Source: Verrucomicrobiota bacterium
Lineage (GTDB): Bacteria > Verrucomicrobiota > Verrucomicrobiia > Opitutales > UBA953
Reading direction: 5' to 3'
NCBI GenBank assembly: GCA_030831965.1
Contig: JAURJZ010000060.1
Location: forward strand, 1 to 64,000
DNA length: 64,000 nucleotides
Position numbers and translations under genes: made by a program. A model generated the notes under the pieces. That model was not told the DNA's origin. It did no database searches and saw nothing but the letters and a program-made list of their open reading frames with translations. Position 1 is the stretch's first letter, and each line of letters begins with the position of its first letter. Positions 20,687 to 50,433 of the stretch are shown piece after piece.

Positions 20687-20781
20687 AAAGCCCGCTTTCA
20701 TGACCATTCCCGCGGGAAGGTGTTGATTCCCCCCTGTGTTTAATATCATTTGCCAAAACTCGGGGTTTGCCCGGCTCAATC

Positions 20782-23481
20782 ATGCCAACCAATCGTCACC
20801 TGATTCTGCCAGCTGTATTACTGGCTGCTGCCGCATCCAGCTTGTCCGCCCAATCCATAACCGTCGGCGCGCAAACCGGCGCGCAGATTTTCTTCAATAG
20901 TTCACTCACTCGAACCTATAACTTTGGCATCACCACCGCCGGCGCCGACACCAACCTCACCATTTCCGCCATCGAGGTCAACCTGAAGGGTGGTAACAAT
21001 GATGTGCAACCTGTTGTCGTCCAGTTGTACAGCGGCCTCGGGGGAACTGGTTCCCTCCTGACGTCGGTGTCGCTCAGCGCCAGCCAGCTCACCAACCAGT
21101 TCGTCTTCAACATTCTCACCCTGCCGACTCCGTTGACGCTCGCTCCCGGGGGCTATTCCGTGCGTTTGACCACGACGAACACCGCCAACTATTTCATCAA
21201 AGACGGCCCCTTGACGCTCAAGGGTGCGTCGGGCGCCACCCTCAGCAACACCGAATGGGTGCAGGACAACAACACCGACGGCACTGCTGGCACCACTCTG
21301 GGTAGCACCACGCCGGTTCTGGCCGACCCGCGGTTCTCCACCCGCACGATCAACTTCGGCAATTATCGCGTGGGCTCGTCGCTCTCGCAGAACGTCACGC
21401 TGACCAATGCCGCCCTCGCCACGTCCAACAACATCACCGAGGCGCTGACGGTCACCGGCGCCACCAACACCAACGGCTCGGCCCAGCTCCCGACCTTCAA
21501 CTGGCTCAACCAGGGGCAGAACGCCACGGGAACCTTCTCGATGTCCAGCGCCGTCGCCGGCGCCAACTCCGGCAGCGTCAACTTCAGCTTCCAGTCGGTG
21601 AAGGGCGACAGCGCCTCGACCAGCACCGCCCCGACCGACCTGCCCGGGCAGACGGTCAACATGAGCGGGACCGGCTACCGTGTCGCCGACGCCTCGTTCG
21701 CCGCCACCTCGGTCAACCTCGGCAATTTCCGCGTCGGCGCCACCAACCTGACCGGCTCCGTCAACGTCACCAACAACGTCACGGCCGACGGCTTCAGCGA
21801 GTCGCTCGTCCTCGCCTCCACCGCCACCACCGGCGGCGCCTCGGCGACCAACCTCTCCGGCGCCATCGCGGCGGGCGCCACCCGCACCCTCGGCGTCGGC
21901 CTCGCCTCCGTCTCCTCCGCCGGGCTCAACAGCGGCACGATCACCCTCGGCAAGACCTCCACCGGCGCCGGCACGAGCGGCCTGGCCGACCTCTCCCAGG
22001 GCAACCAGGTCGTGACGGTCAACGCCAACGGCTACCGCGAGGCCAACGCCGCGTTCGCCGCGACCTCGGTCGACCTCGGCAAGTTCCACGTCGGCGCCGG
22101 CAGCCTGACCGGCTCGGTCGGCGTGACCAACGACGTCGCGGCCGACGGCTTCAGCGAGTCGCTCTCCCTGGTCTCCTCGGGAACGACCGGCGGCGCGAGT
22201 GTCACGAACCTCGCCGGGCTCATCGCCGCCGGCGCCACCCGCAACCTGGGGGTCGGCCTCTCCTCCGTCTCCGCCATCGGCCTCAACAGCGGCACGATCA
22301 CCTTGTCCAAGGCCTCCTCGGGCTCGGGCACGAGCGGCCTGGCCGACCTCTCGCAGGGCAACCAGGTCGTCACCGTGACGGCGACCGGCTATTCCGGCAA
22401 ATCCATCTGGTCGGTCGACGCCAACGGGGACTGGAACAGCTTCGCCGGCTGGGACGGCCCGGGCGGCAAGCCCGGGGTCGACGGTTCCCTCAGCGTCGAC
22501 GACACCGCCACCTTCGCCGGCGCCGCCACCGACGCGCGCACCATCACCCTCGGCTCCGCCGTGCCGACCCTGCGCTCGCTGACCTTCAACAACGCCTCGG
22601 CCTCCTACTACATCGCCCCGGGCGGCTCCGGCCGCCTGCAGCTCGGCACCTCCTCCGGCAACGGCGCCCTCTCCGTGCTGGCCGGCAACCACACCGTCTC
22701 CGCCGGCATCGAGCTCGCGCAGGCCACCACCGCCTCGGTCGCCGCCGGCTCGCGCTTCCTGGTCTCCGGCGCCCTCACCGGGTCCGCCGCCCTCACCAAG
22801 TCCGGGGCCGGCCAGCTGGTCATCGACTCCACGGGCTCCCTCAGCGGCGCCACCACGGTCGCCGCCGGCCTGCTCACCGTCAACGGCTCCATCGCCGACA
22901 GCGACGTCACCGTCGCCTCCGGCGGCACCCTCGGCGGCAGGGGCGCGGTCGGCGCCACCACCATCCAGTCGGGCGGCACCCTTGCCCCGGGCAACTCGCC
23001 GGGCACCCTCACCACGACGGGCAACGCGACCTGGCTGGGCGGCGGGCAATACAACTGGCAGCTTTACAACGCCACGGGTGTCGCCGGCACGGGCTGGGAC
23101 CTCAATGAGATCACCGGCAACCTGGTGCTGACCAGCCTCGACTCGAGCAATCGCTACTCGATCAACGTCTGGACGCTCTCGTCGATCAACACCGACGTCA
23201 ACGGCGACGCCATCAACTTCAACGAGGCCCAGTCCTACACCTGGACCATCGCGCGGGCCGCCTCCATCATCGGCTTCAACGCCTCGCACTTCGTCCTCAA
23301 CCTCACGCCCTCCAACGGCGCCGCCGGCTTCGACAACGCCTACACCGGCTCCTTCAGCGTCCAGGCCAGCGGGGGCAACCTCAACATCGTCTACACGCCG
23401 ATCCCCGAGCCCTCGACCTACGGCGTGGTCGCCGCCCTCGGCGCGCTCGTGATCGCCGCCCGCCGCCGCCGGCGGTCGTGA
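20782..23481 (+). CDS. PEP-CTERM surface protein with tandem choice-of-anchor-D-like repeats
   Basis: An 899-residue exported protein. ATG at 20782 is preferred to an in-frame TTG five codons earlier because it starts the signal peptide (LPAVLLAAAASSLSAQ). Order: an N-terminal beta-rich domain (to about 175); a degenerate and then two nearly identical 119-residue units of the type NFRVGA...VTN (choice-of-anchor-D/ASH-like); an autotransporter-associated repeat region (KSGAGQLVIDSTGSLSGAT near 675, LAPGNSPGTLTTTG near 740); and a C-terminal PEPSTYGVVAALGALVIAARRRRRS sorting signal (PEPSTYG, helix, Arg cluster). It should be processed by an exosortase and displayed at the surface or in exopolysaccharide. 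No exosortase gene is in the window. Confidence 0.9.
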   Translation: MPTNRHLILPAVLLAAAASSLSAQSITVGAQTGAQIFFNSSLTRTYNFGITTAGADTNLTISAIEVNLKGGNNDVQPVVVQLYSGLGGTGSLLTSVSLSASQLTNQFVFNILTLPTPLTLAPGGYSVRLTTTNTANYFIKDGPLTLKGASGATLSNTEWVQDNNTDGTAGTTLGSTTPVLADPRFSTRTINFGNYRVGSSLSQNVTLTNAALATSNNITEALTVTGATNTNGSAQLPTFNWLNQGQNATGTFSMSSAVAGANSGSVNFSFQSVKGDSASTSTAPTDLPGQTVNMSGTGYRVADASFAATSVNLGNFRVGATNLTGSVNVTNNVTADGFSESLVLASTATTGGASATNLSGAIAAGATRTLGVGLASVSSAGLNSGTITLGKTSTGAGTSGLADLSQGNQVVTVNANGYREANAAFAATSVDLGKFHVGAGSLTGSVGVTNDVAADGFSESLSLVSSGTTGGASVTNLAGLIAAGATRNLGVGLSSVSAIGLNSGTITLSKASSGSGTSGLADLSQGNQVVTVTATGYSGKSIWSVDANGDWNSFAGWDGPGGKPGVDGSLSVDDTATFAGAATDARTITLGSAVPTLRSLTFNNASASYYIAPGGSGRLQLGTSSGNGALSVLAGNHTVSAGIELAQATTASVAAGSRFLVSGALTGSAALTKSGAGQLVIDSTGSLSGATTVAAGLLTVNGSIADSDVTVASGGTLGGRGAVGATTIQSGGTLAPGNSPGTLTTTGNATWLGGGQYNWQLYNATGVAGTGWDLNEITGNLVLTSLDSSNRYSINVWTLSSINTDVNGDAINFNEAQSYTWTIARAASIIGFNASHFVLNLTPSNGAAGFDNAYTGSFSVQASGGNLNIVYTPIPEPSTYGVVAALGALVIAARRRRRS
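21673..22386 (+). repeat. Two tandem 357-bp in-frame repeats
   Basis: Copies at 21673-22029 and 22030-22386 have exactly the same 357-bp (119-codon) period inside the PEP-CTERM gene. They share blocks such as ADGFSESL, GLNSGTITL, SGLADLSQGNQVVTV and AATSV-LG. A more diverged copy precedes them (RTINFGNYRVGSSL, about 21330-21670). The conservation at DNA level suggests a fairly recent duplication of one domain. Confidence 0.9.
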
Positions 23482-27305: not shown

Positions 27306-27306
27306 C

Positions 27307-30300: not shown

Positions 30301-30552
30301 GTCGTCGGTGAGGATGCGGCGGATCAGCTCGCTTCGCTCGGGCTTGCCGGGGACGACGCAGGGCTCGCCCGACTCCCCCTTGCCGAGGATGTCCTCGCGG
30401 TACTGGACCGAGATGCCGCCGGCATGCTTGACGCCGCCGTGGCACCCCATGCACTTCTCGTTGAGGATGGGCCGGACGTCCCGGTTGAAGTCGACGGGCT
30501 CGGCCGCGCCGACGCCCGCGGCGACCAAGAGGACAAGGAGCGGCCTGGCCAT
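27307..30552 (-). CDS. PSCyt1-DUF1549-discoidin-DUF1553 exported cytochrome-like protein
   Basis: A 1081-residue protein. After a signal peptide (to about residue 17, VGAAEPVDF) comes a planctomycete cytochrome domain with CMGCH (near 34) and MPKEKPALTKAETDILTRWVKEGAKWDDHW. DUF1549 spans about 140-350 (VDNFILARLEQAGL, LTGLPPTSEETAAFL, RFGERWAAMWLDLARYGDS) with a second haem motif in ACTQCHSHPYDP. A discoidin/F5-F8C-like domain is inserted at about 480-610 (ATQSSTFPGYPASNAVNGKR, NPWLEIDLG). DUF1553 follows from about 780 (PLTARVAVNYLWQELFG, EDFGTMGEKPTHPELLDHLA). The inserted domain suggests carbohydrate binding. The function of these proteins is not proven; a role in periplasmic polymer breakdown is only a hypothesis. 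Confidence 0.93.
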   Translation of the reverse strand: MARPLLVLLVAAGVGAAEPVDFNRDVRPILNEKCMGCHGGVKHAGGISVQYREDILGKGESGEPCVVPGKPERSELIRRILTDDHDDRMPKEKPALTKAETDILTRWVKEGAKWDDHWSFVPPKPAPAPAVRTKAWVSNPVDNFILARLEQAGLRPSAPADKATLLRRVTLDLTGLPPTSEETAAFLADSSPQAYEKAVDRLLASPRFGERWAAMWLDLARYGDSKALGHDSTRHIWPYRDWVIRAFNQDMPWDQFIIRQMAGDLLPEPERDLVATGFHRLTKTNDEGGTNDEEYRTYAVIDRVNTTWNAFMGLQMACTQCHSHPYDPLRDRDYYGSYAFLNQSQDSDKQDDRPTIPFPSDPAADRRLRSAIAEAERTEGAKAVVATSWTELAVARSVASGGAVLTAQPDGVIRASGPRPGSSVSEVDLRPAGLRQVAAVAIDVPAGPGRPAGRHPDGNFVLSAVEVSRIAPSAGPVVARRLRLSMAGKGKVVNVSEIEVLDAAGRNLALNAKATQSSTFPGYPASNAVNGKRSAGIDDTTSTHTEDNPWLEIDLGSPSAIAAVRIWNRMDSGNDARIVGATVALLDADGRPAWSRAIPLRPATQLVEMAVDRAETALPVARAEADHSQNAYPASAVLANDSPASVGWAVGPRVNEPHRLTLALAETATLAPGEQIRIRLHHAHAKPGFAGMDLAAFKVRATDAPPAGANAQPGGLAMLRQQLEKAPTVRLPVMMDLPQDKRRKTHLLVRGAWNSPGEPIAEPFTPATLHPFPKDQPRDRLGFARWIASKDNPLTARVAVNYLWQELFGTGLVLTSEDFGTMGEKPTHPELLDHLAHRLMHEWGWSPKRAIREMVLSSVYRQTSQASAELKERDPRNRLLGRAPRKRLSGEMVRDQALALAGLLNTAQTEGPPYVPPSPGGYLRNAFSGASEVRVTTDAGRFRRSVYGFWKRLEPFAVLTIFDASDRDTCATRRVNTNSPLQALTALNEEILVEAQKGFGRRLLQEAGDDAAKVRAGFALVGEADPRPESVRAALGLLLASRQAYAADPELARKGGLTPEEAAWWQVATVLLNSDTALNRN

Positions 30553-36404: not shown

Positions 36405-36669
36405 TGCCCCCTCAATCAGCAGGGGAATGGAGGAGAGTCCAGCGTCATAGCCGAGCCTCCCCCGCACCCCACCCCCTCCCAAAGCCTCTACATTTGGGCC
36501 TGTCGCCCTTTTTTCGCTTTTTTGTCACCAAAAGGGGTTGATTGCCCGATTCTAGCATTTAATCTTTCTTCATCGCAGTCACCCCCTGCGAAATCCCACC
36601 CCCTCAGTCGTTTCCGGACACCACTCCGAAAAATCTCCGCACACCCCCGCCGAGACACCCTTGAATCCG

Positions 36670-39600
36670 ATGACTCCCAAGGCCAATCGCAGCCTCTTCC
36701 GCGCGTTGCTCGCCGCCGCCGCGCTGACTCCCGCAGCGCCTGCAGCCACGCTCTATTGGGATGGTGCCAACACCACGGTGAATGCCGATGGCGGCAACGG
36801 CACATGGGATGCCTCCGGGCTTGTCTGGAACGACGCGGAGAACGGCGGAGCCTCGGTGGCCTGGACCGAGGGCGATGCCGCCGTCTTCGGCGGCGCCGCT
36901 GGCACGGTCACGGTCGACGGCGCCTTCTCGCTCGCGTCGCTGTCCATCACCGGCGGTTACTCCCTCTCCGGCGGAACGCTCGGTCTGGGCGGGCGCACCC
37001 TGACGACCTCGGCCACCGGCTCCGGTACCGACATCACCATCGCCTCGGCCATCTCCGGCTCCGGCGGCCTCACCCTCGCGGCCCATGGCGACACGTCCGT
37101 CACGGGCGGCGGCGTCGGCGGCAGCCTGTTGCTCTCGGGAGCCAACACTTTCACCGGGGGCGTCACGATCACCTCCGGTGTCGTCAACCTCAACTCGAGC
37201 TTCGGCGACGCCTCCAACTCGGTCACGCTCAACGGCGGCGGCCTCGTCGACGAGGGTGTCAACGCCACCTTCGCCCGCAACCTCGTCATCGGGTCCTCCG
37301 GCGGCGTCATTCGCAACTGGGGCTCGATCGCCAACACCTTCACGGGGACCGTCAGCGGCACCGGCTTGGTCCGACGCACCGATGGCGGCACCTCGCTTTT
37401 CCAAGGCGACTGGTCCGGATCGGTCTCCCTCGAGGCCCAGCGCGGCTACTCGCTCGTCGGCGGCATTTGGAATTCCTCCGGTACCATCTCCACCAGCGGC
37501 GGCAGCGTCGGTTTCTCCCGCTCCGCCTCGCTCGGCACCGCCTCGACCTACCTTGCCCTCGCCAGCGGCGCCGCCCAAGGCAACTCCCGCGGTCTCCTGC
37601 TCGACTCCTCCCGCGTGGTCTCGGGTCGGGCCCTCAGCCTTGGCTCCGCGGCCGTCGCGCCCATCATCGGCTCCTCGGCGCTCAGCCTGACCGGCAACAT
37701 CGCGGGCGTCCACCCCGGCTACGCCGGAACGTTCTCCACCGCGGCAAACGTGACCGTGGTCGAGCAGGGCTTCCACGCCCCCAACGCGGCCTTCGAGACC
37801 AACAACACGGTCGACATCTGGGGCGGCCCCCTCGTCGTCGGCTCGCTCAGCGGCTCCGGCACCATCACCACGAACGGCGTCGGTCGCGGCGACACCGGTC
37901 GCCTGGGCGGCTTCGGCACCCTGGTCTTCGCCGGATCTGCCTCCCAGTCCAGGTCGGGCGCCATGGTGGGGCGGCTCAACGACGCCGCCCTGGTCGTCGG
38001 CTCCAACAACGCCAGCACCACCTGGTCGGGCTCCCTCACCAACGGCTCCTGGTCCGGCGGCGCGGCCTCGCTCCTCAAGCGCGGGAGCGGCACCCTCACC
38101 GTCACCGGCAACGGCGGCGCCAGCGGCGGCTACACGGTCGAGCAGGGCACACTCCGCTTCTCGGGAGCCAACTTCGGCTTCCCCGGCTCGGCCCGCTACG
38201 GCAACACGTTCGCCGTCCTTCAGGGCGGGGCCGTCGAGGCCGCGGCCAACTATCCCTTCTCCCAAGGACAGACCGCCTACCTCCTGGGCGGCACGCTGCG
38301 CTACATCAGCGGCGACATCTACGCGCCCCAGATCGTGATGGATGGCGGGCGCATCGAGGGCAACGGCTTCCGCTTCGGCTACAACCAGGACCACTTCATC
38401 AACGTCCTTGCCGGGCGCGGCGCCTCGACCATCGCGGGCAACCTCAACCTCTATAATAACGGCACCAGCCTGACTTTCCGGGTCGACGATGGGGCGGCCG
38501 CTCGCGATCTCCTTGTCTCCGGCCAGCTCAACGATGCCGGCGGCTACGGCGGCCAGCGCCTCATCAAGGCCGGCCTGGGCACCCTGGCCCTCACCGCAAC
38601 CAACGCCCGCTCCGGCGGCACGACCCTTCAGGGGGGTGTCATCGAGGTTGCCGCCACCAATGCGATCGGCACCGGCACCACCGCGGGCGTGACCCTCGAG
38701 GGCGGCACCCTGCGCGTCGACTACGCCCTCGGGGGGACCCTCGCCACCCAGCCCTTCAGCTTCGGCGGTGGCACGCTGCTGCTGACGGGCAACACCGGCG
38801 CCGTCACCCAGGGCATCGGCGCCACCTCCCTCGCCAACGGCAGCTCGACCGTCAGCGCCGTCCCCGGCGCCGGCGGCGCCACCACCGTCAGCTTCGGATC
38901 GATCACCCGCGCCGGCTCGGCCACCCGCGCCCTCCTCAACCTCAGCGGCACGGCGACCTGGACCACGACCCAGGCCAACGACGCCGCCGGCAAGCTCGCC
39001 GGGGTGCTCCTCGGCGGGGCCCTTGCCGCCAACGACGGCGCGGGCAACATCGTCAAGTTCGCCGGCACCCAGCTGGCGTCCAACTTCATCGAGAGCTCGA
39101 CCGCCGACCTCGTCATCGGCGCCAATGTCACCGGCGACCTCGCCCTGACGAACCCCGGCACCACCACGGTCGGCACCCTCTCCCTTGATGGCACCGCCTC
39201 CGGCCGCACCGTCAATGTCGGCGCGGGCAACATCCTGCGCGTCACCGGCGGCCTCCTCCAGGTCTCGTCCGGCCTCGCCTTCAACGTCGCCGGCGGCACC
39301 CTCACCGGCGGCGCGGCGGACAACACCGCGGCCGACCTGCTCGTCAACGCCACCGGCGGCCTGGCCGCGGGGGCGGGCATGACCCTTTCCTCGGTCGTCG
39401 CCGACAACGGCACCGGGGCCGTCACCCTCGTCAAGGGCGGGGCCGGCTCGCTGACGCTCAGCGGCGCCAACACCTTCACCGGCGGTCTCCTCATCCAGCA
39501 GGGCAGGGTGGCGGTCGGCTCGGACTCCTCGGCGGGCGCGGGCGCGATCACCGTCAACGACGGCGGCCAGCTCTACGCCACCGGCAACCTTTCCCGCGCC

Positions 39601-42600
39601 ATCACGCTCAACGGCGGCATCGGCACGGCCGAGGGCGCGGGCACCCTGGGCGCCCTCCGGCTCGAGGGCGGCGTCACCCTCTCGGGCGGGCTCACCGTCG
39701 CGCGCGACTCGCAGGTCACGACGTACGGCGGCGCCACCGCCAACCTGACGGGCGCCGTCACCCTCAACGCCGCGCTGGTCAAGACCGGCTCGGGCACCCT
39801 CAATCTCACCGGGGCTGGCTCCAACTCCGGCACGGGCACCCTCGTCGTCAAGGAGGGTGTCGCCCAGGTCGGCCAGGGCGGCGCCTACAACAGCGTCAGC
39901 TACGACGCCTACGTCGCCTCCGGCGCGCGCCTGGTCGCCCTCGGCATCAATTCCTGGCAGGGCAACCTTGTGACCGTCGCCGCCGGCGGCGTCTTCGAGG
40001 TCAGCGGCTCTGGCACGAACGGGGCCCACAACAAGTTCCGCAACATCAACCTGCTCGGCGGCAGCTGGATCGGCACTGGCGGGGGCAAGTACGCGGGCGA
40101 GGACGGTAACTTCGTCGACAGCAGCTTCGGCGTCTTCGTGGGCGGCTCCTCCCGGTCGCTCTTCGAGACCCCCAACAAGATCTCCCTGGCCGACACCCGT
40201 TTCTTCGTGCAGGACGTCACCGGTAATTCCGCGCCCGACTTCCTCGTCAAGGGCTCGTTCGTCGGCACCGGTTACCTCGGCGGCCTCGGCGCCACCCGCT
40301 TTGAGCGGCGCGTGGGCGGCTCGGCCAACTCGAACCACACCGCCACCATGGTGGTGCAGGCCGGCCACACCCTTGAGTTCGGCGGCGACGGCGCGATGGG
40401 CACCGGCGCCATCACCCTCGACGGCGGTCGCCTCCGCGCCACCTCGCTCGACGGCTTGGCGGAGTACCAGGTCACCGGACAGTCCTCGATGAACACGACC
40501 GCCACCGGCACCTTCCGCCAGGTCACGGTCGACACCGCCCGCGCCAATTCCACCTCGGACTTCGGCGACAACACGGTCTGGTCCTATCGCGGTCGACTGA
40601 CGGTCGACGCCACCCGCACGATCGCCTTCCGCGAGGGCATCGACGACGTCGCCTGGGTGCGCGTCTGGGGGACCGCGGCCGATGGCACGGCCGTCGACCA
40701 AGTCGTGCTCAACGACACCCGGTGGGATGTCACCACCGCCGGCACGATCACCCTGGGCCCCGGCACCTACAACCTTGACGTCCGCGCCCAGAACGGCGGC
40801 GGCGGCGCGGGAGGCTTCCTGCAGTGGGATTTGAACGGCGGCACCAACTGGTCCGCCATCGGCGTCCCGACCGTCTCGGGCGTCCGGCTCGTCTCCGAGC
40901 TCGGCATCTCCCAGACGCTCGCCAACAATGTCGCCCTCAGCCGCCGCTCGGAGGTCGAGGTCCTGGAGTCGGCCGACACCCTCACCCTCTCCGGCGTCGT
41001 CTCCGGCGCGGGCATGCTCGAGAAGACCGGCGCCGGCACGCTCGCCCTGACGGGCTCCAACAGCTTCACCGGCGGGCTCACCGTCTCGGGCGGCACCGTG
41101 CGCTTCTCCGCCGCCGCCAACCTCGGCGCCGGGGCCGTCAACCTCCTCGAGGGGTCGACCCTCGCCTATGGCGGCGCCTCGGCCCTGACGCTCTCCACCC
41201 CCGTCTCCGTCGAACTCGGCAACGCCACCATCGCCGTGACCAGCGAGTCCGGCACCCTCACCCTCGGTCAGGGGGTCGACAACTACCTGGCCGGCGCCGC
41301 CACCCGCGACGTCACCAAGGCCGGTCCCGGCGCCCTCGTCGTGGCTGGCGCCTCCACCGGCAACAACCGCTTCGTCGTCAGCGCCGGCTCGCTCTCAGTG
41401 ACCTCGACCGACGCCTCCCGCGCCAGCGCCAGCGTCGGGGCCGCGGGCACCCTCTCCGTCTCGTCGGCCGTCTTCGGGGCGATCACCAACGCGGGCGCCG
41501 CCACCGCCGACTCGACCACCCTGGGCGCCCTCACCAACACCGCCGGCACCCTGACCGCCGCCAACGCCACCACCGTCGGTGCCCTCGCCGTCTCCGGCGG
41601 CACCCTCTCCCTCGCCGCCGCCACCGCCTCCGGCAACGTCGCCGTCACCGGAGGCACCCTCGCCGCCGCGGCCCTCGCCAACGCCGGCACCCTCGGTCTC
41701 TCCGCCGGCTCCGCCACCCTCGGCGCGATCAGCGCCGGGGCCACCACCTTTTCCGGTGGCACCCTCACCCTCGCCTCCGGCTCGACGCTCGCCTCGGTCA
41801 GCAAGACCGGCGGCTCCCTGCTGATCGCCGGCAACGGCGCGGCCGGCACCCTCAATGTCACGGGCGACGCCGCCCTCGGCGGCGTCCTCCGCTTCGATCT
41901 CTCCTCGAGCCTGTCCTCCGGCAACGACCGCATCCTCGCCGGCGGCGACGTCAGCCTGCTCGGGCTCACCGAGGTCAACCTCGGCCTGCTCAGCGGCTCC
42001 CTCACCACGGGGCAGTACGTCCTGGTCTCGGGCGCCAGCGTCACCGGCCTCGGCCTCATGTCCATCACGGGCGTCGCCTCTGGCGACTCGCGCCAGACCC
42101 TCACGCTATCCTCCACCGCCACGGCGAACCCCCTCTCGCTCATCGTCGACGGCTCGGTCGCCAACCTTAGCTTCGCCAATGGCGGCACCGCCACCGGCGT
42201 GTGGTCCAACAGCCTCGACGACACTGTCTGGTCCAACGGCGGCACCGACGACCGGTTCTTCTCGGGCGACATCGTCAGCTTCGGCGACCTCGCGGGCGTT
42301 GCCGCCCAGACGGTCACGCTGTCCGGCGAGCTCGTCCCCGGGGCGGTGACCTTCGCCAACACCTCCGCCACCACCTACACCCTCGCCGGATCCGGCGCCA
42401 TCGCCGGGGTCACCGGCCTCACCGTCTCCGGAGGCGGGCGCGTCGTCCTCGCCAATTCCGGCACCAACACCTATTCCGGAGACACCACGGTCGCCTCCGG
42501 CACCCTCGAGCTCGGCTCGGCCTCGGTGCTCTCGGCCAATTCCGCCACCGTCGTCAACGGCGGCACGCTCGACATCGCCGCCGTCGCCAACGTCGCCGCC

Positions 42601-45600
42601 GGCGCCGTCACGCTATCCTCCGGCTCCATCGTCGGCACGACAGGCTCCCTCGTCGCCTCCGCCATCACCGTCAGCGGAGGCCTGCTCGACGCCAACCTGG
42701 CCGGCTCCGGCTCGCTCACCTTCAACGGCGCGGGCCAGACCTTCGCCTACGCCAAGTCCGCGGCCCACACCGGGGGCACCACGCTCGCGGCCGGCACCCT
42801 CAACCTCTCCGGGCAGGTCTCGGGCGCCCTCGCCCAGTCCGCCGGCACCACGCTCAACCTCTCCGGAACCGTCGGCGGCGCGCTGACCCTCGCCGTCGGC
42901 GCCACCGCCGACATCGCCGCCACCGGCGCGGCCAACGGCGGCGTCATCCTTTCCGGCAACCTGGTGTCCGGCTCCACCGTCACCTCCGCCGGTGCCATCG
43001 CCGGCGGCGCGACCGTCCAGCGCAACGCCACCTTGACCTCCTCGGGGTCCCTCGCCGGCGGCGCCACCATCGCCGCGGGCGGCACCCTGGTCACCTCCGG
43101 TTCCCTGTCCGGCAACGTCGCCAACGCCGGCACGCTCCGCTTCGCGGGCGCCGGCGAGGTCGCCTACTCCGGCGTCATCTCGGGCGGCTCCCTCGTCGAG
43201 AAGACCGGCGCCGGCACCGTCACCCTTTCCGGCACCGCCCACGGCATCGCCACGCTCGCGCTCCAGCAGGGCCGCCTGGTCGTCAACACCGGCTCCGGCG
43301 GCACCTGGAACAACACCCTTAACTACGCCAATGTCACCCAGGCCAACGGCACCACCCTGGCCTTCGGCAGCAACTCCTCGCTCAACGGCAACCTGGGCTT
43401 CGCGGGCGATTCCGCCATCGAGGTCGCCTCCGGCGTCACCGTCTGGAAGGACACCGCGGGCGTGCTTGGCGTCAACTCCGCCGGCGCGACCTTCCGCAAG
43501 ACCGGCGCCGGCCGGCTGGTCATCGCCACCAACAACATGGGCTTCGGCGCCGGCGCCCAGGTCATCGTCGACGGGGGCACGCTCCAGTTCAACAAGGGCA
43601 ACTGGTACTCGGGCAACATCGTCGGCCAGGCCAGCCTGACCGTCAACGCCGGCGGCACGGTTGACATCACGAGCTACCACGTCTTCGACGCCTACACCGG
43701 CTTCGTCCCCGTGGTCAACGGCGGCACCATCACCGGCAACGGGCAGGACGTCTATGTCGGCGGTTTTGTCATGACCGGCGGCACCGTCACCGGGACCCGC
43801 TTCGTCAACCTCACCGGCATCACGACCAACGCCTCGGCCAGCACCGCCACCTACTCCGCCGACCTCGCCACCGCCGCGGCCACGATCAGCGTCGCCGACG
43901 GCACCGCCGCGGTCGACTTCCTCCTCGCCCCGTACTGGAACGGCACGGCCAACGCCACCGCGATCACCAAGACCGGAGCCGGCCTGATGCAGGTCACCCT
44001 CGCCGCCACCGGCACTCTCGCCTTGAACGAGGGCTCGGTCCAGGTCGGCGCCGGCGGCACCGCCGGCACCGTCGGCAATGTCACCTCCGCCGCGGGCACC
44101 AGCCTGAGCTTCAACCGTTCGGACGAGTACGCCCACGCCGCCACCATCGGCGGTTCCGGCGCCGTCGCCCATGTCGGGGCGGGCAAGCTGACCCTCTCCG
44201 GCGCCAACACCTTCACCGGAGGCCTCACCCTCGCCGGCGGCACCCTCGCCCTCGGCACCTCCGCCTCGGGCGGCTCCGGCGGGCTCACCGTCGCGACCGC
44301 GGCCGCCAACCTCGAGATAGGCGCGGGCGCTGAGGTCACCCGCACGACCCTTGGCGGCACGGGCAGCCTGACCAAGTCCGGCGCCGGCTCCCTGACCTTC
44401 TCCGGGGCCAGCACCCTGGCCGGCGACCTCGCCGTCACCGAGGGCGCCCTCGCGCTGACCGGCGCCGCCTCCCTCGGCCATTCCGGCACGGTCGCCGTCG
44501 CCGCCGCCGGCACCCTTGTGGTCGGCGCCTCCGTGGCCGACACCGGCACAGCCGCCATCACCAACGCCGGCACCCTCACCTTGGCCGGCACGACGGCCCG
44601 TTCCCTGTCCAACAGCGGCACGGCGACCATAACCGGGTCGGTCGGCGCCCTCACCGTCACGGCCGGCACCGTGACCAGCACCGGGAGCGCGGGCAATGTG
44701 ACCCACACCGGCGGCGTCCTCAACCTGTCCGGAACATTCGGCTCGGTCGCCTCCACCAGCGGCGAGCTCCGCCTCAGCGGCACCGGCGGCGCGCTCACCG
44801 TTGGCGGCGACAGCGTGATCAACGTGGGGGGCGTCGGCGCGACCTCCTCGGCCACGTTCACCTCCCTCACCCTGCAGGACGGCGCTTGGCTCGAGTTCGA
44901 GATCTCCGACCCCTCCGCCCTCGCGTTCCAGGACCGCATCGTCCTCAACGGGGGCGACCTCGACTTCTCGGGCCTGACCACGGGCATCATCCTGGATGTG
45001 CACGGCCTGAACCGCGCCACCGGGACCCGGGACGGCGCCACTGTCTTCAACCGCTACGCGGATTACACCGTCAGCCTGGTCAGCGGCGCCGGCCAGGTTA
45101 TCGGCTACGACGCCGGCCTGGTCGACTTCACCATCGGCGGCTTCGGCACCGGGCTCGACGCGACCGGCACCTGGACCCTGCAGCAGGTCGCCGGAGGGCT
45201 CGACCTCGTCTACGAGGGAATCCCCCTGCCCGAGGCTCTTGTCACGGTCGAGGCCAGCCTGACCCAAGGCTTGTCTGACAGCCAGGAAGGCCTGGATTTC
45301 CTCGCTGACGGCGACGAGCAGATCTTGGCCAAGGCGGGCGCGGGTCGCCTGACCGTGACCGAGGCCCTCACCCATGTGGGCGGCGTCAAGGTCAACGCCG
45401 GCACCCTCCTCCTCAGCGGGGCCACCGCCGACCTCGGCCCGGGCGATGTCACCCTCGCCTCCGCCGCGGTCCTTGAGCTTGACCGCGAGGGCGCCGTGGC
45501 GAGCAACATCGCCGGCGCGGGTGTCATCCGCAAGGTGGGATCCTCCTCGACCACCCTCACCGGCATCCTCGCCAACACCGGCGGGATCTTTGTCGACGCC

Positions 45601-48600
45601 GGCACCCTTGGCGCCAATTTCGCCCCCTACGCCGCCACGGTCACCGTCGCCTCCGGGGCCTTCGCGGACTTCCTCGGGGAGCAGGCCCAGACCTTCGCGG
45701 GCAACCTCGCCGGCGCGGGCACCGTGCGCATCACCGGCGCCAGGGTTGTCACCCTTTCCGGCTCCAACTCCGGCTTCACCGGCACGCTCGACGTCCAGGA
45801 CGGCGGGCTCGTCCTCGCCGCCGACCAAGCCGCGGGCTCGGGCACCGTGCAGGTCGCCGCCGGCGCCACCGCCACGGTTTCCGGCGCCGTCACCCTCGGC
45901 TCGCTCGTCACGGGCGCGGGCACCCTGGCCAAGGCCGGGTCTGGCCTCTCGACCCTGTCGGTCGCCCCCACCCTGGCCGGCGACATCTCGGTCAACCAAG
46001 GCACGCTGCGCGGCGACTTCAGCCAGGCCAGCGGCGCGATCACCGTCGCCGCCGGCGCCACGCTCGATTTCGCCACCGCCGGCTCCGCCTCACGCGGCGC
46101 GGCCGACATCACCGGCGCGGGCGCCTTCGCCAAGACCGGGGCCGGCACCCTCGCCCTCACCTCCGCCCCCGGCGTGACCGGCGGCATCCGCGTCGAGGAG
46201 GGCGTGCTCGCCGCCGCCGACTTCGGCACCTCGTCCGCCGTGGCCGTGGCCTCCGGGGCCACCGCCGAGGTCAACCTCGCCGGGACCGCCACCCTGGCCT
46301 CGACCTTCACCGGAACGGGCACCTTCCGCAAGGCGGGCGCCGGCACCCTCACGCTCGGCGCCACCGGGCTCGCCGGCTTCTCGGGCAAGATCCGCCTCGC
46401 CGACGGCGCCCTCGCCGTCAGCTCCTCGACCAGCTACGGCCTGGTCTCCGGTGCCGACGCCATCCAGCTCGCCGGCGGCGCGCTCGCCTTCAGCAACGGC
46501 CTCACCCTCGGCGGCGGCCTGGGCATCCAGGTCACATCCCTCGGCGGACGCCTGGACGCCTCCGCCCTCGGCGCCAGCGGCACCGTCACCGTCAACGGCG
46601 AGGTCTCGGGGACGGGCACCCTCACGATCGCGGGCAGCGGCAACACCAGCGCCAGCGGCGGCGGCGACGCCGGCCTCGGCCTGCGCCTGGCCAACGGCGC
46701 CAACTCCTTCACGGGCGACATCCGGATCACCTCGGGGCTCGTCTCCTACACCTCCTCCGCCGCGCTCGGCAACGCCGGCAACCGCATCGTGTTCGACGGC
46801 GGCGGCATCCTCGACAACAACGTCAACCTCTCGCTCGCGCGCGCCATGCACGTGACCGCCAACGGCGGCCTCATCCGTCTCTACGGGGGGGCCAACGCCA
46901 CCTACAGCGGCGCCCTGACCGGCGTCGGCGAGCTCCGCCGCACCGACGGCGGCGACACGGCCTTCACCGGCGACCTCTCCGGGTTCACCGGCACCTTCAC
47001 CAACCAGTCCAACTCGACCACCCGGTTCACCGGCGCCGCCGCCGCCTTCGGGGCCGCCACGATCAACGCCAGCAGCGGCAACGTCGGCTTCGCGGTCGGA
47101 CGCGTCGGCGCCGCCACGGTGCGGCTCGACGGCGCCAACGTCTTCTTCGTCGACGGCGGCACCGCCGGCGGCACCTTCCAGCTCGTCGAGGGCCGGAACG
47201 CCAACTTCTACGCCGACACCAACACCGTCGCCCTTCCCAACCTCGGCGGCACGGGCGCCAACCTCTACCTTCAGAACAGCGGCACGCTGCGCCTGCTCTC
47301 CGGGTCGCCCACGCTCACCGGGGCCTTCCGGGCCAACGCCGGCACCCTGGCGGTCGACGGCGCCGCGGTCGCCGCCGGCACCCTCGAGGTCTTCAACGGC
47401 GCCATCCGCTCCGACTCCGGCTCGATCACCGTCGCCGACGGCATCTACATGGGCACCGGCACCCTCACCGTCGCCGGCGGCACCGTCAGCGCCGCGCGCA
47501 TCCGCACCTCCGAGGGCGGCGGCACCGTCTCGACCATCAACCAGACGGGCGGCACGGTGAACATCACCGGCGCGGTCATCGAGAACGAGCGCAACAACTC
47601 GTTCATGCTCAACCACTGGCCGGGCGCCTCCACCTACAACCTCTCGGGCGGCACGCTCAACGTGCTCAACACCAACGCCAACCTGGGCTGGGACGGCAAC
47701 GCCTACATCAACCAGTCGGGCGGCGTCGCCAACCTTCGCGGCGTCAACCTCGCCTCCGGCCGCAACAACGCCGGCGGCTACACCCTCTCGGGCGGCCGGC
47801 TCAACCTGGGCGTCGGCGGCGTCAGCGCCGCGTCGGCCAAGACCTTCACGGCGGGCAACGCCACCCTCGGCGCGATGGCCAACTGGACGTCCGCCAGCGC
47901 CATCACCCTCAACGGCGCGACCGGCACGGTCATCGACACCACCGACTCGGTCGACGGCTCGACCGGCCGCACCATCACGATCTCCGGGGCCCTCGGCGGC
48001 ACCGGGAAGCTCATCACCCAGGGCGCGGGCACCGTGGTCCTCTCCGGGGCCAACACCAACTCCGGGGCCATCCGGGTCGACTCCGGCACCCTCCGTGTCA
48101 CCGGCACGCTCCGCGGCGGCGCGGCCCTGACGGTCGCCTCCGGCGCCTCGCTGGAACTCGACGCCACCAACATCTTCGTCGGCGGTCACGATGCGGCCCT
48201 GGCCGCGACCCAGACCCTCGCCGCCAACGGCGGCTCCATCTTGCTGGGCGGCGGCTTCGACTCCCGCCTCGGCAACATCAGCCTGAACGGGGCCACCCTC
48301 ACCTCCAACCGCGGCCTGGGAGGCTACGACGCCTACCTGGCCGAGACCACGGGCGGCGCCGTGTCCGTCACCGTCGGCGGCGCCTCCGCCTCCCTGATGA
48401 ACGGCACGGGCGGCATCCACCTCGGGTCCAATGTCCGGTTCGACGTCGCCAACGCCACCGGCGACGCCGCGGCCGACCTCCTCGTCAGCCTCCGGCTCGA
48501 CAACGGCGGCGCCATGGGCACCACCGGGTCGCTCACCAAGTCCGGCGCCGGCACGCTCGTGCTCGACAACGCCCTCAACAGCTTCACCGGCGGCGTCACC

Positions 48601-49950
48601 GTCGAGGCGGGCGTCCTCCGCATCGCCTCCGCCGGCTCCCTCTCGACCGGCGACATCGTGCTCACCGGGGGCCTCCTCGACCTCGGCAACTTCGCCTTCG
48701 CCGGCAACATCACCCTGGCTGGCGGCATGGTCGTCAACACCGGCGGCTGGACCGGCACCGGCACCGCCAATCCCGCCTTCACCGTTGACCCCGCCTTCCT
48801 CGCCGGGCTTTCCGCGGACACAACCTTCTCGGTCCTGCCCGGCATGACCGCCGACATCTCCGGGGTCCTCGCCTCCGTCGATCTCCGCGGCGGCGCCCTG
48901 CAGGGAGTCGGCGCCTACGCCGGCGCCCTCAGCGTGTCCGCCGGCACCCTCGACCTCACCCAGGCGACCCCCCTCGGCAGCCTCGCCCTGGGCGGCACCG
49001 GCTCGATCGACTTCGGCGGGCGGGCGTCCGACATCGACATCGACTATTCCGGCGGCTCCCTCGTCAACGCCGCCAACTACAGCGGCGACATCACCGTGAC
49101 CGGCGCCTCCACCACCCTCGTCGCCGGCACGCTCGGCGGCGGCACCGTCGTGGCGGGCAACGGCCGCCTCCTCGTCTTCGGGGCCAACTTCGCCAACAAC
49201 GTCCGCCTCGTCGGCGGCTCCGTCCTCAATCTGCAGAACTTCCAGGGCACGCTCTTCGTCGGGGCCGGCAGCTCCGTCAACCTCGGCCGCATCGCCGACA
49301 ACACCGACACCGTCACCCTCGCCTCGCTTGTCCTGGAGAACGGCGGCATCCTCTCCGGCGAGGGCACCTTGGCCTCGCTCACGCTCGACGCGGGCGGCGT
49401 GCTCGCGGTCGGCAACTCGCCCGGCGTCATCACCACGACCGGCAACGTCACCCTCAACGGCGGGTCGCAGCTCTTCGAGATCCGCAACGCGGTCGACACC
49501 CTGAGCAACCAAGCCTCCGCTCCCGGCGTGGACTACGACGTCGTCCTGGTCCAGGGCACGCTCGACCTCTCCGGCCTGAGCGCGCAGAACCGCTTCCTGC
49601 TCGAGCTTATCAGCCTCGCCCAGGACGACACCCTCGGGCCTGTCGTCGATTTCGACCCCGCCGGCACCTACCAGTTCACCCTCTACGACTTCGCCGGGCT
49701 CAGCCTCGGGTCCAACACCGCGGGGTCGGTCAACTCCCTGTTCACCATCGATGCCGACGGGTTCGTCGACATGAACGGCGACCAGGTCGACGGGTCCCTG
49801 TTCTCCGTCTCGCTCAACCTGCAGGACAACACCCTCGTGCTCAACTACGGCGTCGTGCCCGAGCCCTCCACCTACGGGCTCATGCTCGGCGGCCTCGCGC
49901 TCGCCCTCTCCGCGTGGCGTCGCCGCCGCAAGGCCGCTCCCCAGGCCTGA
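36670..49950 (+). CDS. Giant (4426 aa) autotransporter-repeat PEP-CTERM surface protein
   Basis: A single 13.3-kb open frame. ATG at 36670 is favoured over TTG at 36661, since it leads straight into the signal peptide (RSLFRALLAAAALTPAAPA). The mature protein is low in Cys and rich in Gly, Thr, Ala and Ser. It is built of autotransporter-associated beta-strand repeats such as KTGAGTLALTGSNSFTGGLTV, with at least eight SGANTFTGG-like cores, a PA14-like module (about 1296-1397), and a ~150-residue module seen four times. It ends in VPEPSTYGLMLGGLALALSAWRRRRKAAPQA, a PEP-CTERM sorting signal (PEPSTYG, helix, Arg cluster). There is no beta-barrel, so despite the repeats it is not a type V autotransporter. 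Expected location: cell surface or extracellular matrix; function probably adhesion or matrix building. Confidence 0.9.
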   Translation: MTPKANRSLFRALLAAAALTPAAPAATLYWDGANTTVNADGGNGTWDASGLVWNDAENGGASVAWTEGDAAVFGGAAGTVTVDGAFSLASLSITGGYSLSGGTLGLGGRTLTTSATGSGTDITIASAISGSGGLTLAAHGDTSVTGGGVGGSLLLSGANTFTGGVTITSGVVNLNSSFGDASNSVTLNGGGLVDEGVNATFARNLVIGSSGGVIRNWGSIANTFTGTVSGTGLVRRTDGGTSLFQGDWSGSVSLEAQRGYSLVGGIWNSSGTISTSGGSVGFSRSASLGTASTYLALASGAAQGNSRGLLLDSSRVVSGRALSLGSAAVAPIIGSSALSLTGNIAGVHPGYAGTFSTAANVTVVEQGFHAPNAAFETNNTVDIWGGPLVVGSLSGSGTITTNGVGRGDTGRLGGFGTLVFAGSASQSRSGAMVGRLNDAALVVGSNNASTTWSGSLTNGSWSGGAASLLKRGSGTLTVTGNGGASGGYTVEQGTLRFSGANFGFPGSARYGNTFAVLQGGAVEAAANYPFSQGQTAYLLGGTLRYISGDIYAPQIVMDGGRIEGNGFRFGYNQDHFINVLAGRGASTIAGNLNLYNNGTSLTFRVDDGAAARDLLVSGQLNDAGGYGGQRLIKAGLGTLALTATNARSGGTTLQGGVIEVAATNAIGTGTTAGVTLEGGTLRVDYALGGTLATQPFSFGGGTLLLTGNTGAVTQGIGATSLANGSSTVSAVPGAGGATTVSFGSITRAGSATRALLNLSGTATWTTTQANDAAGKLAGVLLGGALAANDGAGNIVKFAGTQLASNFIESSTADLVIGANVTGDLALTNPGTTTVGTLSLDGTASGRTVNVGAGNILRVTGGLLQVSSGLAFNVAGGTLTGGAADNTAADLLVNATGGLAAGAGMTLSSVVADNGTGAVTLVKGGAGSLTLSGANTFTGGLLIQQGRVAVGSDSSAGAGAITVNDGGQLYATGNLSRAITLNGGIGTAEGAGTLGALRLEGGVTLSGGLTVARDSQVTTYGGATANLTGAVTLNAALVKTGSGTLNLTGAGSNSGTGTLVVKEGVAQVGQGGAYNSVSYDAYVASGARLVALGINSWQGNLVTVAAGGVFEVSGSGTNGAHNKFRNINLLGGSWIGTGGGKYAGEDGNFVDSSFGVFVGGSSRSLFETPNKISLADTRFFVQDVTGNSAPDFLVKGSFVGTGYLGGLGATRFERRVGGSANSNHTATMVVQAGHTLEFGGDGAMGTGAITLDGGRLRATSLDGLAEYQVTGQSSMNTTATGTFRQVTVDTARANSTSDFGDNTVWSYRGRLTVDATRTIAFREGIDDVAWVRVWGTAADGTAVDQVVLNDTRWDVTTAGTITLGPGTYNLDVRAQNGGGGAGGFLQWDLNGGTNWSAIGVPTVSGVRLVSELGISQTLANNVALSRRSEVEVLESADTLTLSGVVSGAGMLEKTGAGTLALTGSNSFTGGLTVSGGTVRFSAAANLGAGAVNLLEGSTLAYGGASALTLSTPVSVELGNATIAVTSESGTLTLGQGVDNYLAGAATRDVTKAGPGALVVAGASTGNNRFVVSAGSLSVTSTDASRASASVGAAGTLSVSSAVFGAITNAGAATADSTTLGALTNTAGTLTAANATTVGALAVSGGTLSLAAATASGNVAVTGGTLAAAALANAGTLGLSAGSATLGAISAGATTFSGGTLTLASGSTLASVSKTGGSLLIAGNGAAGTLNVTGDAALGGVLRFDLSSSLSSGNDRILAGGDVSLLGLTEVNLGLLSGSLTTGQYVLVSGASVTGLGLMSITGVASGDSRQTLTLSSTATANPLSLIVDGSVANLSFANGGTATGVWSNSLDDTVWSNGGTDDRFFSGDIVSFGDLAGVAAQTVTLSGELVPGAVTFANTSATTYTLAGSGAIAGVTGLTVSGGGRVVLANSGTNTYSGDTTVASGTLELGSASVLSANSATVVNGGTLDIAAVANVAAGAVTLSSGSIVGTTGSLVASAITVSGGLLDANLAGSGSLTFNGAGQTFAYAKSAAHTGGTTLAAGTLNLSGQVSGALAQSAGTTLNLSGTVGGALTLAVGATADIAATGAANGGVILSGNLVSGSTVTSAGAIAGGATVQRNATLTSSGSLAGGATIAAGGTLVTSGSLSGNVANAGTLRFAGAGEVAYSGVISGGSLVEKTGAGTVTLSGTAHGIATLALQQGRLVVNTGSGGTWNNTLNYANVTQANGTTLAFGSNSSLNGNLGFAGDSAIEVASGVTVWKDTAGVLGVNSAGATFRKTGAGRLVIATNNMGFGAGAQVIVDGGTLQFNKGNWYSGNIVGQASLTVNAGGTVDITSYHVFDAYTGFVPVVNGGTITGNGQDVYVGGFVMTGGTVTGTRFVNLTGITTNASASTATYSADLATAAATISVADGTAAVDFLLAPYWNGTANATAITKTGAGLMQVTLAATGTLALNEGSVQVGAGGTAGTVGNVTSAAGTSLSFNRSDEYAHAATIGGSGAVAHVGAGKLTLSGANTFTGGLTLAGGTLALGTSASGGSGGLTVATAAANLEIGAGAEVTRTTLGGTGSLTKSGAGSLTFSGASTLAGDLAVTEGALALTGAASLGHSGTVAVAAAGTLVVGASVADTGTAAITNAGTLTLAGTTARSLSNSGTATITGSVGALTVTAGTVTSTGSAGNVTHTGGVLNLSGTFGSVASTSGELRLSGTGGALTVGGDSVINVGGVGATSSATFTSLTLQDGAWLEFEISDPSALAFQDRIVLNGGDLDFSGLTTGIILDVHGLNRATGTRDGATVFNRYADYTVSLVSGAGQVIGYDAGLVDFTIGGFGTGLDATGTWTLQQVAGGLDLVYEGIPLPEALVTVEASLTQGLSDSQEGLDFLADGDEQILAKAGAGRLTVTEALTHVGGVKVNAGTLLLSGATADLGPGDVTLASAAVLELDREGAVASNIAGAGVIRKVGSSSTTLTGILANTGGIFVDAGTLGANFAPYAATVTVASGAFADFLGEQAQTFAGNLAGAGTVRITGARVVTLSGSNSGFTGTLDVQDGGLVLAADQAAGSGTVQVAAGATATVSGAVTLGSLVTGAGTLAKAGSGLSTLSVAPTLAGDISVNQGTLRGDFSQASGAITVAAGATLDFATAGSASRGAADITGAGAFAKTGAGTLALTSAPGVTGGIRVEEGVLAAADFGTSSAVAVASGATAEVNLAGTATLASTFTGTGTFRKAGAGTLTLGATGLAGFSGKIRLADGALAVSSSTSYGLVSGADAIQLAGGALAFSNGLTLGGGLGIQVTSLGGRLDASALGASGTVTVNGEVSGTGTLTIAGSGNTSASGGGDAGLGLRLANGANSFTGDIRITSGLVSYTSSAALGNAGNRIVFDGGGILDNNVNLSLARAMHVTANGGLIRLYGGANATYSGALTGVGELRRTDGGDTAFTGDLSGFTGTFTNQSNSTTRFTGAAAAFGAATINASSGNVGFAVGRVGAATVRLDGANVFFVDGGTAGGTFQLVEGRNANFYADTNTVALPNLGGTGANLYLQNSGTLRLLSGSPTLTGAFRANAGTLAVDGAAVAAGTLEVFNGAIRSDSGSITVADGIYMGTGTLTVAGGTVSAARIRTSEGGGTVSTINQTGGTVNITGAVIENERNNSFMLNHWPGASTYNLSGGTLNVLNTNANLGWDGNAYINQSGGVANLRGVNLASGRNNAGGYTLSGGRLNLGVGGVSAASAKTFTAGNATLGAMANWTSASAITLNGATGTVIDTTDSVDGSTGRTITISGALGGTGKLITQGAGTVVLSGANTNSGAIRVDSGTLRVTGTLRGGAALTVASGASLELDATNIFVGGHDAALAATQTLAANGGSILLGGGFDSRLGNISLNGATLTSNRGLGGYDAYLAETTGGAVSVTVGGASASLMNGTGGIHLGSNVRFDVANATGDAAADLLVSLRLDNGGAMGTTGSLTKSGAGTLVLDNALNSFTGGVTVEAGVLRIASAGSLSTGDIVLTGGLLDLGNFAFAGNITLAGGMVVNTGGWTGTGTANPAFTVDPAFLAGLSADTTFSVLPGMTADISGVLASVDLRGGALQGVGAYAGALSVSAGTLDLTQATPLGSLALGGTGSIDFGGRASDIDIDYSGGSLVNAANYSGDITVTGASTTLVAGTLGGGTVVAGNGRLLVFGANFANNVRLVGGSVLNLQNFQGTLFVGAGSSVNLGRIADNTDTVTLASLVLENGGILSGEGTLASLTLDAGGVLAVGNSPGVITTTGNVTLNGGSQLFEIRNAVDTLSNQASAPGVDYDVVLVQGTLDLSGLSAQNRFLLELISLAQDDTLGPVVDFDPAGTYQFTLYDFAGLSLGSNTAGSVNSLFTIDADGFVDMNGDQVDGSLFSVSLNLQDNTLVLNYGVVPEPSTYGLMLGGLALALSAWRRRRKAAPQA
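38070..48510 (+). repeat. Dispersed ~150-aa module repeated four times in the giant gene
   Basis: Copies at about 38070-38540, 39830-40270, 43490-43960 and 48110-48510. Each runs from a 'GGxL...' beta-helix stretch to a common ending: DGAAARDLLVSGQL, TGNSAPDFLVKGSF, DGTAAVDFLLAPYW and TGDAAADLLVSLRL. The span given is the outer limit of the four copies; other material lies between them. Confidence 0.7.
40555..40860 (+). other. PA14-like domain inside the giant protein
   Basis: Residues about 1296-1397 read like a PA14 carbohydrate-binding module: WSYRGRLTVDATRTIAF, a DDVAWVRVWG strand, VVLNDTRWD, GTITLGPGTYNLDVRAQNGG, and GFLQWDLNGG. This is a different fold from the surrounding beta-helical repeats, and suggests glycan binding. 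Assignment is by pattern only. Confidence 0.55.
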
Positions 49951-50001: not shown

Positions 50002-50433
50002 GTGGAGCATCTTCGCCGCCTGCTGGTCGTCCTCCTTGAGTGGGCCTCGCTCGCCCTCGGGGTCTTCGTCGCCTCCAAGTGGGGTTTGCTCGCCTATGAC
50101 GACCTGGCGGCCCTCGCCGCGGTCATCCTGACCATGGGGGTGCTCAACTCCTTCGTCCGCCCGCTCGTGCTCGGGGTCTACCTCATCGTCTCCCTCCCGG
50201 TGCTCATCCTCTCGCTCGGATTGGCCTATTACCTGGTCGTTCTCCTCGCCAACGGCACCGTGCTCTACCTCGCGGACCAAATCCTCGCCAGCTTCAAGGT
50301 CACGCGCTGGGCGTTGGCCACCCTTTGCATCTCCCTCGTCTCCTGGCTGCTGACCTCCGCCCTCGGCATCGAGCAGGTCAAGCCGTGGCGACGGCCCGCC
50401 CGGAAGGGCCCCGACGACGCCATCGACGTCTGA
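50002..50433 (+). CDS. YvlD/phage-holin-IV-type membrane protein
   Basis: A 143-residue protein with four hydrophobic helices, starting at GTG. The motif ILTMGVLNSFVRPLVLGVYLIVSLPVLILSLGLAYYLVVLLANG (split: GVLNSFVRPLVL, LPVLILSLGLAYYL) matches the small 4-TM family PF04020 (YvlD/'phage holin IV'). The C-terminus is basic (KPWRRPARKG). The biological role of the family is not known, though some members are linked to cell-envelope stress. It lies 51 bp after the giant gene and 54 bp before the aminotransferase gene. Confidence 0.75.
   Translation: MEHLRRLLVVLLEWASLALGVFVASKWGLLAYDDLAALAAVILTMGVLNSFVRPLVLGVYLIVSLPVLILSLGLAYYLVVLLANGTVLYLADQILASFKVTRWALATLCISLVSWLLTSALGIEQVKPWRRPARKGPDDAIDV

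Follow-up and report, generated by a model that had tools for sequence, protein, structure and literature searches.

A 13.3-kb single gene of a Verrucomicrobiota bacterium that joins an autotransporter-type repeat passenger to a PEP-CTERM signal

The window, by which we mean the whole 64,000-nt stretch of DNA analysed here, contains a giant gene on the plus strand (36670..49950), whose frame runs without interruption from an ATG at 36670 to a stop codon at 49950 and encodes 4,426 residues in 13.3 kb; an alternative in-frame TTG start at 36661 would give 4,429 residues. An earlier reading made from the letters alone (the sequence-only reading) had described a single uninterrupted frame covering about one fifth of the window, and the frame is indeed open throughout and covers 20.8%. 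GC3 is 0.87–0.99 in all 900-nt blocks of the gene, and the composition screen that produced the GC3-selected gene list of the window picks this frame as coding. The gene is real. Minus-strand ORFs as long as 1,751 aa lie beneath it, and other giant genes of relatives likewise overlie long minus-strand frames; these antisense ORFs are taken as a by-product of GC-richness. A scan for sigma-70 and terminator signals around the gene yielded nothing exceeding shuffled sequence.

Several other genes of the window deserve mention. A small membrane protein (Phage_holin_4_2; 50002-50433) is encoded on the same strand, starting 52 nt past the giant gene, with which it is possibly co-transcribed. A second PEP-CTERM protein of up to 904 aa (20767..23481, plus strand) shares the C-terminal module of the giant protein and also carries choice-of-anchor D domains; within its gene, at 21672-22370, a 357-bp unit occurs twice in tandem, the two copies being 83% alike. 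At 25827-30552, a DUF1501 gene adjoins one whose product combines PSCyt1/PSCyt2/PSD1 with a discoidin-like domain; this gene pair is known from Planctomycetes and Verrucomicrobiota.

The giant protein begins with a Sec-type signal peptide, MTPKANRSLFRALLAAAALTPAAPA (36670..36744, plus strand), which was claimed by the sequence-only reading and is recognisable by eye; its cleavage is predicted, also by eye, between MTPKANRSLFRALLAAAALTPAAPA and the following A, near A28/A29 in the 4,429-aa numbering. The passenger that follows (aa 153-4099; 37117..48957, plus strand) contains approximately 20–22 beta-strand repeats of the PATR/TIGR02601 type (PATR, passenger-associated transport repeat). The profile searches that the sequence-only reading had proposed for its autotransporter-associated repeats matched 16 stretches with Pfam PATR (PF12951, E 2.8e-34) and 17 with TIGR02601 (E 1.4e-35). 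A repeat model trained on the PATR hits of the bacterium's own genome identified 22 copies, 20 of them above 8 bits, and found no copies in five shuffles of the protein's residues used as a control. The repeats are spaced 61–414 aa apart. The protein is rich in Gly (18%), Ala (14%) and Thr (12%), poor in Lys (0.8%), and devoid of cysteine, and a beta-helix with zero cysteines is typical of exported passengers. The whole-protein self-BLAST returned the diagonal only; a slice-wise self-comparison detected a diverged internal duplication (best between aa 109-253 and 3294-3441, 45%).

Pfam and TIGR profile searches matched no barrel family in the giant protein, including the C-terminal 12-strand barrel of type Va autotransporters (PF03797), in agreement with the missing barrel noted in the sequence-only reading. 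The profile searches also revealed no catalytic family across the 4,429 aa, a phmmer search with the full-length protein found nothing among PDB chains, and no recognised ligand-binding domain was found. The solenoid is interrupted by an insert of long strands (aa ~1305-1391; 40573..40833, plus strand) that resembles a jelly-roll-like beta-sandwich in an AlphaFold2 model of aa 1099-1639, where the pLDDT is 64 for the whole slice and 72–86 for the insert. The Foldseek matches of the insert, to PA14 lectin, CBM and MAM folds, are weak and non-significant (best E about 0.004-0.04).

Structure prediction by slices had been proposed earlier, and, of the two slices modelled, the one comprising the last 470 residues gave the more confident result (pLDDT 87 and pTM 0.80, from an alignment of 38 sequences). 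The model runs from short beta-helix-like strands through a sandwich cap and a lower-confidence loop at the PEP site to a membrane helix at model positions 443-466. By our reading of the strand pattern, this end would consist of a beta-helix (aa 3960-4274; 48538..49482, plus strand) and a beta-sandwich cap (aa 4275-4396; 49483..49848, plus strand), which together form the C-terminal module, and the alignments of relatives show the cap in both PEP-CTERM-ended and barrel-ended proteins. The five best PDB matches of the model are all autotransporter passengers, namely Ssp, Ag43, IgA1 protease (twice) and VacA p55, although the matches are weak (Foldseek E 1.4e-3 to 0.1), and the viral structure library contained no significant match. 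The protein thus has the PATR-bearing beta-helical passenger of a type Va autotransporter, with the fold modelled confidently in the last 470 aa only. The module is followed by the PEP-CTERM signal (49855..49932, plus strand), consisting of PEPSTYG, a membrane helix and RRRR. This signal, which the sequence-only reading had recognised as a terminal PEPSTYG/helix/Arg element, scores above the cut-offs of both curated profiles at residues 4399-4424 (TIGR02595, 25.3 bits versus 16; PF07589, 26.3 bits versus 20.7), and its helix is present in the model.

The earlier assignment to a Verrucomicrobiota cell agrees with the identity of the congeners, which are MAGs named 'uncultured Opitutae bacterium' (LaPlata_bin-3548, LJ_bin-1123), and the lake names of related MAGs suggest that these bacteria live in freshwater. 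None of five congeners has a full-length ortholog of the giant protein; the best congener match covers the C-terminal ~450 aa at 40–44% identity. The repeat region is a mosaic in which different slices match different relatives, and the last ~180 aa are recognisable in 74 of 78 loci, which had been selected through that very end.

Single frames built in the same way, each bearing a single leader and a single PEP-CTERM tail, occur in other genomes at a wide range of sizes: two adjacent ones of 3,597 and 4,229 aa in the 10-contig assembly G008, 9,593 aa in G217, 11,590 aa in G181, 12,014 and 11,897 aa in YR_bin-3491 (G036), and 12,377 aa in VK4_bin-1524 (G016). A further frame of at least 17,232 aa in G006 is open at the contig end, and a 2,663-aa example is present in the one-contig, 6.0-Mb genome G142 of the order. 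The giants of G006:C2, G016:C10, G036:C33 and C70, G181:C37 and G217:C4 (L129-L143) reside in genomes of ~2.2-2.7 Mb. Because same-module single frames elsewhere reach 12,377 aa, the window protein is mid-sized and ordinary in its Opitutales family; the 'very large' protein of the sequence-only reading is real at 4,426 aa, but its size is not exceptional among its relatives. Freshwater Opitutales genomes of ~2 Mb thus spend 30–50 kb on single genes for such proteins. A barrel-ended, cysteine-free frame of at least 13,549 aa was also observed in a barrel-rich genus of the family (G024:C160:3-40649, L149-L151). The bacterium's own genome contains another, even larger PATR frame, which has 37 repeats and runs into a contig end, so that its 6,629 aa are a minimum length (G000:C1:2414-22300; L010, L011). 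Joining C1 with C77 into a still larger gene was considered and rejected, because the two share only 79 nt, the last of the C1 frame, and do not meet end to end.

The sequence-only reading had named an assembly error joining two or more genes as the finding that would overturn it. The genome is a 96-contig draft whose other PATR genes break at contig ends with overlaps of exactly 141 nt, and these breaks, together with the missing full-length ortholog in congeners, are what one would expect if two or more PATR genes had been joined artificially. However, the longest exact repeat within the giant gene is 22 nt, and the longest stretch it shares exactly with the genome's other PATR contigs that were compared is 29 nt, both far under 141 nt; overlaps of that length suggest that repeats considerably longer than 29 nt posed no problem to the assembler. 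The even GC3 and the single leader and single tail also speak against a fusion, as do the independent assemblies, some of ~10 contigs, that contain single frames of the same build from 3,597 to 12,377 aa. Because of the short longest repeat, the even codon composition and the similar genes in independent assemblies, a false join is very unlikely.

An exosortase, whose absence from the genome was the other finding named as fatal to the sequence-only reading, is encoded once, at C63:30476-31378 (PF09721, E 5.7e-36). Its score is above the cut-off of TIGR04178 and below that of TIGR02602, and it contains the motifs CSGIR, GRN and VHD, which supply the Cys/Arg/His triad of the family. The gene adjoins those of a glycogen-synthase-like enzyme and a Gcw_chp protein, with no polysaccharide cluster at that site. 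The genome-wide count of PEP-CTERM genes proposed earlier yielded 11 tails. Elsewhere in the genome there are a Wza-type exporter (PF02563) adjoining Wzz, two secretins and three autotransporter barrels. Among 135 near-complete genomes of the order, 92 have both exosortase and PEP-CTERM, 18 exosortase only, 4 PEP-CTERM only and 21 neither (Fisher p 2e-10, a value that is optimistic because the genomes are related). Some of the 18 exosortase-only genomes do carry tails that the model missed: G013 was scored as tailless, and yet a protein of this genome ends in IPEPSTYG. In another set of 18 genomes, those behind loci that PEPSTYG had found, TIGR02595 matched in only 6. At E 0.001 it detected no PEP-CTERM in the g2 genomes G006, G010, G013, G016 and G022, although G013 and G016, at the least, have clear PEPSTYG tails. 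Surveys by TIGR02595 therefore undercount PEP-CTERM proteins.

The most interesting aspect of the giant gene is the exchange of anchors on its C-terminal module, which ends in PEP-CTERM in most relatives and in an autotransporter barrel in three species. Several profile matches of the C-terminal end stop at position 442, where the PEP-CTERM part starts. In two relatives (G016:C7 and G218:C4), a PF03797 barrel follows the module in the same frame; in the third (G211:C119), the barrel was read from the sequence, closely resembles the barrel end of G016 and terminates in YRRRF. Module positions 2-442 are matched in the barrel-ended relatives at 190–219 bits, the alignment extending through the final residue of the cap, and the barrel-ended and PEP-CTERM-ended caps are 40–47% identical. 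G016 carries both forms, and the bacterium's own genome has, divided between contigs C20 and C9, a PATR protein with a diverged cap and a barrel end. In a tree of the caps, the three barrel caps form one supported clade among PEP-CTERM caps, whereas the own-genome barrel cap is placed elsewhere on a long branch; the tree needs at least two anchor changes, and its backbone is weak. Among the five genera compared, barrels number 3–24 per genome in g3 and g5, and 0–5 in g1, the genus of the window, and its sister g2.

The switch of the module to a barrel falls precisely at the PEP boundary, so that a PEP-CTERM end takes the place of the barrel. We tentatively consider, as a possibility that falls short of an even chance, that the two ends are interchangeable on one family of giant passengers; if so, the exosortase pathway may accomplish across the outer membrane what a barrel does elsewhere, and the cap would be a common docking or folding part of both forms. 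We found no paper in the open-licence literature describing such an exchange on a shared module. The same passenger end occurs with a barrel and with PEP-CTERM, sometimes in one genome, and this allows two envelope-delivery routes to be compared directly within one protein family; if the two ends are interchangeable, such matched pairs would help to trace how PEP-CTERM proteins get through the outer membrane.

As to function, we favour, as a reasonably probable reading, a cysteine-free beta-helical envelope protein that serves as a long structural or adhesive fibre of the cell surface or matrix. Sec would export the protein, the PEP-CTERM helix would hold it in the inner membrane, and the single exosortase would cut it at PEPSTYG and then transfer or release it; the protein would finally reside at the surface of the cell or within the polysaccharide matrix, and there its long beta-helix may act in a fibre-like manner. 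We infer the processing, outer-membrane crossing, surface location and adhesion from the features described above. Weighing against this reading are the lack of a recognised ligand-binding domain, the weak fold matches of the insert, an exosortase that scores under TIGR02602 and lies outside a polysaccharide locus, and Foldseek E-values of only about 1e-3. Because the module is common to both ends, the PEP-CTERM/exosortase route would here serve a passenger that is barrel-borne elsewhere in the family. In Nostoc, PEP-CTERM proteins disappear from the exoproteome and biofilm formation suffers when the exosortase is lost (PMC12188702), and floc formation in Aquincola reportedly involves a PEP-CTERM gene (PMC9850573).

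The outer-membrane crossing of PEP-CTERM proteins is an open question (PMC12188702), and the exosortase-cut protein could instead stay in the periplasm as a scaffold or be freely shed as a matrix filler, with no role as a surface adhesin. The giant protein has no barrel of its own, Nostoc ScyE and ScyF are periplasmic (PMC12188702), and in Akkermansia intracellular fractions contained more PEP-CTERM protein than outer-membrane fractions did (PMC4960237). We nevertheless consider this outcome unlikely, given that relatives bear the same C-terminal module on a barrel, an outer-membrane secretion device, and that the cysteine-free beta-helix is of the kind found in exported passengers. The jelly-roll-like insert, with its weak similarity to GlcNAc-binding PA14 and CBM folds, could point to a surface protein that binds or processes glycans, and the great length and a repeat region that turns over rapidly from congener to congener would suit a bulky coat against grazers and phages, rather than mainly an adhesin. 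The lack of any catalytic family and the non-significant fold matches of the insert, however, make this explanation somewhat less likely still than a periplasmic or shed protein. A surface or matrix fibre thus remains our preferred reading.

The giant gene joins two known kinds of proteins, PATR passengers and PEP-CTERM proteins. With type Va autotransporters (PF12951 with PF03797; Ag43, Ssp and ShdA), the window protein shares the PATR repeats, the beta-helix fold and the near absence of cysteine, and its relatives carry the C-terminal module upstream of a barrel; it differs in having a PEP-CTERM end and no barrel. With PEP-CTERM/exosortase proteins (TIGR02595, PF07589), it shares the leader, the PEP motif followed by a helix and a basic cluster, and a genome containing a Cys/Arg/His exosortase, many tails and polysaccharide export genes. 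PEP-CTERM proteins are mostly without known domains (Haft 2006, PMC1569441), whereas the window protein has a giant autotransporter-type beta-helix. In Akkermansia muciniphila, which belongs to the same phylum, 23 PEP-CTERM proteins were predicted and 9 were seen by mass spectrometry, and the available part of that report mentions neither giant PATR proteins nor a cap module in common (PMC4960237). The giant genes of other PVC bacteria that PMC12057145 cites, whose products reach 85,800 aa, have very long single frames in common with the window gene; those products are described as containing many membrane helices and carbohydrate-degradation domains, in contrast to the PATR beta-helix and PEP-CTERM end of the protein described here.
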